Shown here piece after piece: positions 6,206-9,321 of a DNA stretch of 64,000 bases. A program made the translations under genes and the position numbers. The DNA comes from Styela clava. Lineage: Eukaryota > Chordata > Ascidiacea > Stolidobranchia > Styelidae. The notes beneath the pieces are model-generated. The model did no database searches, had not been told where the DNA came from, and saw nothing but the letters and a program-made list of their open reading frames with translations. The first letter of the stretch is position 1. Every line of letters starts with the position of its first letter. Location of the stretch: NCBI RefSeq assembly GCF_964204865.1, contig NC_135252.1, positions 1,364,001 to 1,428,000 on the forward strand. Reading direction: 5' to 3'.

Positions 6206-7160
6206 TCAATCTGAGTCTGATTGCCCTCCAGAACTTGAATCCGAACCTAAAAATAAATGATTTCAAAATTACCAGGAATTACCAAAGATTACCAAAACAC
6301 TACATCGGCATTTTTTACGCTGGGAAACTATGAACAGATACTGGCGTGACTTTACAATATTCAGCCGCAGTGGATTCGAGTTTAGATTTCGAATCGTCAA
6401 CTTTGATTTGTGTGCGGATAAGTACGTATATAAACAATCGTTGCATCAAAAATAATTATTTAGTCTCAAGATGTTAAAATTCATGTTCATAATTCGTAAT
6501 AAATTTGTCTGAAACTACACTGTTTGTGTGGCCAGCATCCATGGTAGTTATCACCATGTCCGAAGTAAATTTTTATAATAGTGAGAATCATTTTGAACTT
6601 CATTTACAATTGCCTACTCACAACCTTTTCACCTCAACATATCAGGTTTTATTTATCATTCAGACAATTGAATACTCTGTTTAACTGGCTTTAACTCTGT
6701 AAAAATACTTACTGTTGCTCGACCCACGTGACATCGAAGGCTTTCGATCTAATGATCCATCACTACCGGACCGTATCCTTCGCGTAAAGAAACATCTCCT
6801 ACCCCAGCAAATGACGAAACGTAATCTAAAGTTAAAGTCAAAATAATACGAATGAAAAATTATTTATTTGTTCACAGAATACTATCTACACATATCAATA
6901 GATCCAAGCTGTGAGCGGTGTTCGGAATTATCCATTTACGTAAAAAACACGCAATACACCAACACATGGGCTGCATGTGCTCTACCCTCTCGTAAAACCA
7001 GTACATTTTATGTTTAAACAATATATTTTAATACTCACCTCGATTGTCTTGCTACAATTTTTGTATCATGTGTTAAATGCGTCGAATCTGAACTTGATAT
7101 CAAGAGTAAAAATATAAAAATTACTCCATAAACAGGTTTGTAACATACTACATCCAACAT
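6206..7160 (-). CDS. Small secreted cationic peptide precursor 1 (two-Cys core)
   Basis: I do not recognise this gene from a named family. Three exons, 7039-7160, 6713-6825 and 6206-6246 (- strand), join with GT/AG borders in phases 2 and 1 to give 91 residues. Residues 1-24 are a signal peptide with hydrophobic core GVIFIFLLLISSS. A short pro-segment ends ARQSR, an RxxR furin-type site. The next stretch, LRFVICWGRRCFFTRRI, has six Arg, no acidic residue and two Cys four residues apart, so a disulfide-closed hairpin is plausible. The last ~30 residues are Ser-rich and become acidic (ending GGQSDSD). Signal peptide, processing site, cationic core and anionic tail is the layout of many antimicrobial peptide precursors, including ascidian ones; that role is inference. 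A paralogue with the same layout lies 1.28 kb upstream. An AG just before the ATG suggests a 5' UTR intron or spliced-leader addition. Confidence 0.66.
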
Positions 7161-8440
7161 CTTTTAAATATCTGAAGAATCAACAATAAAATATCATGCA
7201 ACAACTATTCCCGTGAACACTATTTTATATATTGATTGAATTGTTGTTCAGATATTTTTTTTCAAATTAAAATCAAACCCTTTTTCTCAAAAATCTGTAC
7301 CATTGATAGGCTACTTTAAGGTTGTTACTATTGACATGGCGATGTAATTCATTATATATGTGGTACATTCATCTTAGATATCGTGTAAAATATTTAAATA
7401 CGTCAATTGTAGTCCTTAATCAACCGTAATTTACTTAATTTACGTAAGGTTCAATAATCACATTTCAAAAATGATTAATACTAAGAAGCAAAGCAAAGTA
7501 AATAATTTTGAATTACAACGAAGAAGACTTCCATGTAAGATTTTAGTCGATTAAATTTGGTGACGTCAAATTTGGTGACGGTATAGACGCCAATACTTTT
7601 ATATTAATTATTTGCTCTGAGAAAGGTTAAAAAAAATTGCTCAAAAGTGATGAGTACCGACTCAAAATTGAAATCATGGAGCAGGAATGCGACTGCTAAT
7701 AGATGTGTATCATCATCGCTGTTGGGAGAATTAACCTAATAAATATGATGATAAATTGACGCAAGACACAGAGAGGAACCATGATATGCAAACCCTTTCA
7801 AGCCTAATACTGTCTATAAGTCTTTGTCGGTAATGTCGCCTATTCCCAAATTAGGAGCTTTGATTCACTTTCATTGAATGAAAAGGTTTTAACAACCATA
7901 TGATGTATTTTTCACTAAATCTCCGAAAATATTTTTCCCAGATAAATTTATTTCCTGCAAAAATGCTATACCTATGCTTTACACTCTTTTATGCATTCTT
8001 TTCCGATATTAATTTTATTAAGCCACTATGATTTAATACAATATGCATTTCAGTAAAACAAACTTTATTGTTTATGAAAAATGCTCATAAAAAGGATTGC
8101 GCCAACACAACAGAAACATAACACTAAACGGAGTAGAAAGTTGGTTGCAAAGCATAAAATTTAATATGTAATTTAATGTATAAATCAAGAGGTCAAATAT
8201 TAAACTGTAAAACTAGAAACAAAAATAGTTAAAGTTTGGTAATTATTTAACTCAACTTTATTTCATTTTTGTTCATAGTTGTTGGAATTTAATTAATTAT
8301 GAGGTAGGCCAATGAAATACATTTCTTTACTGAATGCTCATGATTTCAAAATGACCAAATAATTGAAAACACATATATATATATATATACAGTCAAAAAT
8401 GCAGATAAATGTATTGTACATGGAGAAATGATATCTTCGT
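7161..8440. other. Spacer between the two peptide genes
   Basis: This holds the probable promoter and 5' UTR of precursor 1 (reading leftward) and the 3' UTR of precursor 2. A (TA)n tract lies at 8373-8390. I see no third paralogue and no transposon end. Confidence 0.5.
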
Positions 8441-9321
8441 TCAGCCAAATCTCCACTCGGAATCACTTGATGAATTTGATGATGATGATGATGATGATGA
8501 TGAATTTGATGAACCTGTAGCAAGTAAAATAATAATTGAATTTTGGATCATTTTGTCTAACACGAGCAATATTTCACATCGTTATCGTGATGGTTAAAAA
8601 ACAGGCATGATAAAGCCCAACTGTAAAATGCAGATCAATAAAAATTTCCAAAAATTACTGTTATGCATATAGTATAATGGTTTCATAATCGTTTCAGATA
8701 ATAGAAATTCAGTAGGATGTTTAATTTGACGCGGACCCAACGACCACTACCGTCCACCAGTTCGCCCCATCTGACTTTGCTTTGAGAAGATCTATGTGCG
8801 ATCAGCCACAGAAGATCCAAATATATAGTTTCTGTTTGCATGTAACTGTACTTTGCATTCTTGAGCTTGCAAACAAGCTTTAGCCTTTTATTTACAGCAA
8901 ATAAGACTGTATGTTTTCCGGTTTACATTTGTTTAATAAAATGGGCAAAATTAATTACTCACTGCTGTTACTAGATCTTCTTGGCTTCGTTTTCGTGTCT
9001 GAACCACTAGAAAACTTCTTTCTTAACCACCAAATTCTGAATCTGTACCTACAACAATGAAACAAACTGTTCATCTAAGTACAAATATAAAACCACATAA
9101 AGTTCTATTGACTTCAAAGTTGATAAAAGAGAAATTAAAGAATCACACCAGCTTTCAAAGCATTTGTCTTGTAGAACATGTACTTACCTCGATTGTCTCG
9201 CATAACTCAAAAGAGAGTCATCTTTCTTCACAAGTCGCGGGAACAGAAATGTGGCGTCAGATTTTGATATTATAACTAACAAAATAATTATAGCAAGTAT
9301 TTGCTTGTTTGTTGTAGACAT
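8441..9321 (-). CDS. Small secreted cationic peptide precursor 2 (Trp/Arg core, no Cys)
   Basis: Paralogue of the gene at 6206-7160, on the same strand. Exons 9188-9321, 8963-9048 and 8441-8514 join in phases 2 and 1, the same as the neighbour, giving 97 residues. Residues 1-24 form a signal peptide (core ILAIIILLVII). The pro-segment again ends ARQSR at the first splice junction. The core YRFRIWWLRKKF is strongly basic with paired Trp and no Cys. SSGSDTKTKPRRSSNS then aligns with RSGSDG...SSNS of precursor 1. The third exon encodes a serine tract with nine consecutive TCA codons, then SSSDSEWRFG and stop. A C-terminal Gly after RF could in principle be an amide donor, but no dibasic site precedes it. 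The conserved start, processing site and intron phases make chance ORFs unlikely. Antimicrobial or signalling function is inference. Confidence 0.64.
8474..8512 (-). repeat. TCA trinucleotide microsatellite inside precursor 2 exon 3
   Basis: Nine uninterrupted TCA codons (- strand), flanked by AAT and further TCA codons, encode a polyserine/Asn tract. Length variation between alleles would change the tail without shifting the frame. Confidence 0.85.

Follow-up and report, generated by a model that had tools for sequence, protein, structure and literature searches.

Two small genes, arranged head-to-tail on the minus strand of the 64-kb stretch of DNA analyzed (as a whole, the window), are predicted to encode secreted, cationic, aromatic peptide precursors. 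A and B are almost certainly real genes, and we consider it probable that they are paralogous genes from an old tandem duplication, encoding host-defence pre-pro-peptides. Gene B, which lies upstream of gene A, runs from 9321 to 8441 and encodes 97 amino acids; gene A runs from 7160 to 6206 and encodes 91. Their parts are as follows.

Gene B exon 1, 9188..9321, minus strand: leader, short propiece, and ARQSR; intron 1 (phase 2) interrupts the codon of the final Arg.
Gene B intron 1, 9049..9187, minus strand: 139 bp, GTAAGT..TAG.
Gene B exon 2, 8963..9048, minus strand: cationic aromatic core YRFRIWWLRKKF and SGSD..SSNS linker; similar to A.
Gene B intron 2, 8515..8962, minus strand: 448 bp, phase 1, GTGAGT..CAG.
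Gene B exon 3, 8441..8514, minus strand: poly-Ser tail, final SDSEWRFG, and stop.
Gene A exon 1, 7039..7160, minus strand: leader, short propiece, and ARQSR; intron 1 (phase 2) interrupts the codon of the final Arg.
Gene A intron 1, 6826..7038, minus strand: 213 bp, GTGAGT..TAG.
Gene A exon 2, 6713..6825, minus strand: core LRFVICWGRRCFFTRRIR with Cys-x4-Cys, RxxR (RRIR) before SGSD, and linker.
Gene A intron 2, 6247..6712, minus strand: 466 bp, phase 1, GTAAGT..TAG.
Gene A exon 3, 6206..6246, minus strand: Ser/Gly/Asp tail and stop.

The original prediction had described two head-to-tail genes of one three-exon design, and each detail that it gave (exons, introns, phases, leaders, and motifs) is reproduced from the sequence. 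The order was right; the strand, which it had left out, is minus for both genes. The intron sizes are exact with 213 and 466 bp in A and 139 and 448 bp in B, all four introns show GT..AG ends, and the intron phases are 2 and then 1 in both three-exon genes. Likewise, the hydrophobic leader, the ARQSR across the first splice junction, and the GSD..SSNS stretch are present in A and in B. The Ser/Asp tail ascribed to both genes is found in A, whereas the tail of B is almost pure Ser.

Both precursors are laid out in the same order: leader, short propiece, ARQSR, core, SGSD, linker, SSNS, and Ser-rich tail. The leaders of the two genes are MLDVVCYKPVYGVIFIFLLLISSSDS and MSTTNKQILAIIILLVIISKSDA, with the starts MLDVVCYKP.. 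and MSTTNKQIL.., and their small residues at −3 and −1 would suit signal peptidase. RxxR is the minimal furin pattern, and RQSR fits it. A scan for this motif returns positions 38 and 56 in A and position 42 in B; RQSR stands immediately N-terminal to the core in both, and RRIR forms the C-terminal end of core A only. Core A, LRFVICWGRRCFFTRRIR, has a net charge of +6, four aromatic residues among its 18, and two Cys spaced by four residues. Core B, YRFRIWWLRKKF, has a net charge of +5, is aromatic at five of 12 positions, and contains no Cys. The tail of A, SDSSSGGQSDSD, is composed of Ser, Gly, and Asp and ends in SDSD, and the tail of B is a poly-Ser run from a TCA-type repeat that ends in SDSEWRFG. 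From SGSD onward, the net charge is −2 in A and +2 in B, this part being rich in Ser and devoid of a Glu run; the whole precursors carry +4.7 (A) and +10.5 (B). Gene models, leaders, shuffle tests, and a blind scan give good support, at the level of sequence, to the original description of tandem secreted cationic peptide precursors.

The open frames are short and one tail is a simple repeat, as would be expected if A and B were no genes at all, their open frames and splice sites having arisen by chance. We hold this reading to be very improbable and have dropped it, since the shuffle tests, the blind scan, and the codon pattern speak against it. For the blind scan, both strands of the 64-kb window were searched for an ATG followed by a ten-residue stretch with a mean hydropathy of at least 3 and an in-frame GTRAGT donor, and the first exons of A and B were the sole output. 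A set of 100 first-order Markov sequences, each 64 kb long, gave a mean of 0.16 hits; two or more hits occurred in 3 of the 100 and RQSR in none. A looser donor (GTRAG), applied to 244 kb around the locus, returned two extra rows; both are starts of a single frame, at about 34.65 kb in the window. In four separate tests, none of 5000 shuffles of A scores as high as the alignment of the A and B proteins: the whole proteins (110 versus 50.2 ± 7.4 in shuffles), the proteins without tails (79 versus 25.1 ± 5.3), the segment ARQSR..SSNS (58 versus 21.8 ± 4.4), and the segment before ARQSR (42 versus 20.1 ± 4.2). Herein, means and spreads are taken from 500 shuffles and the count of 0/5000 from the larger set. 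The two gene models furthermore match each other in intron phases, in the motif at the junction, and in segments of the protein, and a synonymous codon pattern (see below) stands beside unlike introns. What favors chance frames is tblastn on the window, in which the sister exons are matched weakly (A on exon 2 of B with E 0.51; B on exons 1 and 2 of A with E 1.1 and 1.3) and are outscored by two unrelated places (E 0.18 and 0.30). By itself, this search is weak. Because of these sister values of 0.51 to 1.3, the kinship of A and B rests on the shuffle tests of the spliced proteins, the matching intron phases, and the motif at the junction, and not on BLAST.

The simplest reading of this kinship is an old tandem duplication after which protein segments were kept, so that A and B look like old paralogues. 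The alignment up to SSNS contains 33 columns with identical residues; the codon is the same in 14 of them and differs in 19. Five of these 19 differences are switches between codon boxes, namely Leu TTA/CTG, Arg CGT/AGA (twice), and Ser TCC/AGT and AGT/TCA. Similarity of the introns and of the upstream DNA is that of shuffled sequence: the score is reached by 275 of 300 shuffles for intron 1, by 92 of 300 for intron 2, and by 170 of 300 for the 600 bp upstream. The codon pattern points to selection on the protein. The residues common to A and B are located in the leader, in ARQSR, at the start of the core (R-x-R-F-x-I-x-W), in SGSD, and in SSNS; beyond SSNS, the short tails are unlike in both length and composition. 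A shared promoter was considered and rejected because the upstream DNA is without similarity (600 bp, shuffle test). GATA, C/EBP, and TATA words occur in both upstream regions, as returned by the same script that was used to scan for NF-κB sites.

The design of leader, basic site, short cationic aromatic core, and Ser-rich tail most resembles that of secreted defence peptides. In such a host-defence role, signal peptidase would cut after SDS in A or SDA in B, and a furin-like convertase would then cut after RQSR, freeing the N terminus of the core. In A, the second RxxR (RRIR) before SGSD would release LRFVICWGRRCFFTRRIR (net +6) as a small hairpin with one disulfide staple. In B, either the short Trp/Arg-rich core YRFRIWWLRKKF (net +5) would be released, or the Ser-rich tail would be retained. 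The cationic aromatic peptides would bind and damage microbial membranes, and storage in blood-cell granules would probably precede this attack. Precedents for parts of this scheme come from other ascidians. Two Ciona peptides, WWLSRRRSSLFYWR and TINKKFRWHGKRKWWLRFVKQ, are described in excerpts of PMC7387483 as inhibiting Escherichia coli and Staphylococcus aureus (MIC <3.125 μM) and not Pseudomonas aeruginosa. For Botryllus, furin is reported in the granules of morula cells, which also store the botryllin propeptide (PMC9966394, in excerpt).

The role, which the original prediction had worded as host defence or signalling, is still one that we infer. Host defence is rated the likelier of the two, and an anionic C-terminal region, a good hydrophobic moment, and NF-κB sites were all looked for and not found. 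Defence-peptide genes often occur in larger sets. Points against host defence are tails that are not strongly acidic, poor core moments, the lack of an NF-κB-like site, and the finding of only two copies in searches of limited sensitivity. Herein, the NF-κB scan covered 600 bp upstream with two patterns and returned no site; in the excerpts of PMC7387483, such sites are reported for two of five Ciona peptides tested.

One close comparison is with the linear cationic α-helical antimicrobial peptides (LCAMPs) of Ciona (Ci-MAM, Ci-PAP, and others). As far as excerpts of PMC7387483 describe them, their precursors are small and combine a signal peptide with a short, cationic, sometimes Trp/Arg-rich core, several of these cores being alike in kind to those of A and B. 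A leader and a cationic segment within a precursor of 50 to 100 residues are predicted here as well (B 97 and A 91 residues; cores +5 in B and +6 in A). Differences are the RQSR propiece before the core and the tail that is not strongly acidic, to which A adds RRIR and two core Cys. According to the same excerpts, the Ciona precursors consist of a signal peptide and a cationic region, followed in 17 of 22 candidates by an anionic C-terminal region. This anionic helical region, frequent and not universal in Ciona, is absent from A and B. The leaders, compared by eye with both consensus strings of the family signal peptides (MDRKIVFAL.. and MNKSALL..), agree with neither. Membership among the Ciona LCAMPs is therefore a poor fit, as both the anionic C-terminal region and the family leader are missing. 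The Ciona candidates were, moreover, screened to remove Cys-holding sequences, and, in contrast to frog precursors, they are described in the excerpts as lacking a basic processing motif where core and proregion meet (PMC7387483). In this respect, A and B resemble the frog type (frog motifs as excerpted from PMC7387483), since a putative convertase motif (RQSR) stands between proregion and core in both.

The cores were modelled with AlphaFold2 in single-sequence mode, using 38 residues from the core onward for A and the 30 residues of exon 2 for B. The model of A is a two-stranded hairpin (strands 3–7 and 10–14, with Cys 6 and Cys 11), a weak model with a mean pLDDT of 64.3 that rises to 77 over the first ten residues. 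According to this model, core A could be stapled by one disulfide. The model of B, likewise weak with a mean pLDDT of 65.4, shows a helix at 6–13. The hydrophobic moments of the whole cores (Eisenberg) give P values against shuffles of 0.89 (A) and 0.93 (B) at 100° and of 0.93 (A) and 0.22 (B) at 170°; the lowest P among the ten moment values computed is 0.07, for the first strand of A at 170°. Hence, the moments, which are no better than those of shuffles, lend no support to an amphipathic α-helix or strand across the whole cores. Compared with the helix of the LCAMPs, for which the criteria of the paper are HeliQuest and PROTEUS and not the Eisenberg moments used here, A is modelled as strands with two Cys and B as a short helix of low confidence. 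Such poor moments leave room for activity, because low moments, given in excerpts of PMC7387483 as 0.170 and 0.151 on a different scale, are also found for the active Trp/Arg-rich peptides of Ciona.

Arenicin, bactenecin, and thanatin are single-disulfide β-hairpin antimicrobial peptides. Core A is similarly modelled with one Cys on each strand (mean pLDDT 64.3); the ring here, in contrast, is just Cys-x4-Cys, and the core of the paralogue B is without Cys. No BRICHOS or cathelin domain was seen in A or B, as no Pfam domain reached its cut-off. Further ascidian peptides are compared by description, from excerpts of the respective papers. Styelins, botryllin, and clavanins are likewise made from secreted peptide precursors, with furin reported in Botryllus morula-cell granules (PMC9966394). 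Botryllin is a pre-propeptide of 158 amino acids with a mature peptide of 37 (PMC9966394), compared with 97 and 91 amino acids for the precursors described here, and styelins and clavanins are set apart by cleavage N-terminal to D and DD (PMC7387483). Turgencins and St-CRPs are also small disulfide peptides of ascidians; they possess six cysteines and an amidated C terminus, whereas the cores described here have two Cys (A) or none (B) (PMC7024374, PMC13208793).

C-terminal amidation is at the center of another reading, in which A and B are peptide hormone or neuropeptide precursors that a convertase cuts at RQSR and at dibasic sites to yield small amidated signalling peptides. The products would be LRFVICW-amide from ..CWGRR.. 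in A and a C-terminal ..WRF-amide from the final Gly in B. A does carry Gly-Arg-Arg (WGRRC), which is the pattern of amidation plus a dibasic site, and the frame of B ends in WRFG-stop (8441-8514, minus strand), whose terminal Gly could be amidated. The blood cells of Ciona offer a precedent, since their products include an amidated signalling peptide, CiEMa (PMC10888236, in excerpt). We nevertheless find this reading unlikely: a Gly before a basic site or at the C terminus is not shared by the two precursors, as WGRR occurs in A only and WRFG in B only, B having no Gly before a basic residue and A ending in SDSD. Each precursor contains a single core without repeats, and the shared R-x-R-F-x-I-x-W, SGSD, and SSNS do not border a common amidation site.

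The low-complexity, Ser-rich tail at the end of both proteins would, in turn, suit small secreted proteins with a structural or adhesive role, such as in tunic or mucus. The tails, which may carry phosphate or glycans, would then be the working part, and polyanions would be bound by the basic part. This is improbable in our view, because the tails differ, and the residues common to A and B sit elsewhere, namely in the leader, ARQSR, the core start, SGSD, and SSNS.

As a more specific form of the host-defence reading, we tentatively propose, and hold to be rather doubtful, that A and B are the founding pair of a tunicate defence-peptide family. The convertase site would span the exon border and exon 2 would serve as a cassette for the core; following the duplication, a Cys-stapled hairpin would have arisen in one copy and a linear Trp/Arg-rich peptide in the other, with leader, cleavage site, and linker under selection. 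If the cores are active, the precursor design is one unreported for the Ciona peptides, with frog-like activation at a basic site before the core and not by removal of an anionic C terminus. If the proposal is true, one duplication gave two core architectures, which makes the pair a direct test case for fold change in defence peptides. Being small marine peptides, they may tolerate salt, a property of practical interest; as a class, small cationic precursors are to be expected in ascidians.

Within the scope of the searches made, the two sequences may still be called undescribed, as the original prediction had it: no Pfam family reaches its cut-off, no convincing relative is found in the PDB, and six core strings are absent from the open-licence papers searched. 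In Pfam, A has no match up to E 1 and B has three below cut-off (E 0.026 to 0.057). In the PDB, A has no match and B has three weak ones (E 0.41 to 1.2), all of which extend into the Ser run. The strings RFRIWW, FVICWGRR, CWGRRCFF, IWWLRKKF, RQSRYRF, and RQSRLRF were not found in those papers. The genome searched has 379 contigs and a total of 376.6 Mb. When the entire locus was used as a DNA query, it matched itself alone, and protein searches with A and with residues 1–72 of B returned their own exons only. Distant copies would escape these protein searches, since neither returned the sister gene. Across 244 kb around the locus, the best tblastn match other than the genes' own exons has E 0.60, and the sister lies at chance level there. 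The junction pattern GCNMGNCARWSNMGGTRAG has 41 matches in the genome versus one in the control, and two of the 41 are A and B themselves. Of the other 39, three were fetched, and none of the three looks like a third gene. One of these has in-frame upstream stop codons, and two resemble, by eye, copies of a dispersed repeat, their gapless identity around the motif being only 99/216. The sequence GCCCGCCAGTCTAGGTGAG occurs at 38 places in the genome (22 exact and 16 close variants, e.g., G000 C1:3735560-3735578 and C2:12980907-12980925), and the two that were fetched look repeat-like by eye.

Several features of the surroundings were noted in addition. To the left of the pair, a C2H2 zinc-finger gene comes to its end, with frames at 421-2844 (plus strand) and a C2H2 Pfam match at 1532-1822; the gene resembles ZEB/zfh1, as does a 15-residue stretch near 2.1 kb of the window, which is ZEB-like. 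About 3.7 kb past the right end of the window is a frame that resembles SNRPG. Elsewhere in the genome, a partial match to glycoside hydrolase 6 covers positions 136–253 of 305 (E 1.5e-6, 35.4 bits versus a cut-off of 27) and has no counterpart in 14 control genomes; a QxxRW motif of cellulose synthases is absent within 3270 bases at this locus. Among animals, GH6 is known as a tunicate feature, and the partial match is consistent with an ascidian origin of the genome. A search for COX1, through which the mitochondrial code would have served as a further test of this origin, gave no match. A tRNA-Gly (GCC) at 29398-29468 (minus strand) and a tRNA-Leu (TAG) at 29600-29681 (plus strand) are arranged divergently with 131 bp between them. 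A repeat encoding ..GKPIRRLIHMANHGLSSGYHSKSGMGLV.. has two copies in the window in opposite orientations, at 14895-15248 (plus strand) and 40679-41068 (minus strand). Finally, a minisatellite-like stretch 80 kb left of the window (L012, ~9227-9760) is open in several frames and encodes repeats such as GANVRGCKCTWVQM, and a similarly worded fragment lies within the window at 24089-24421 (minus strand).
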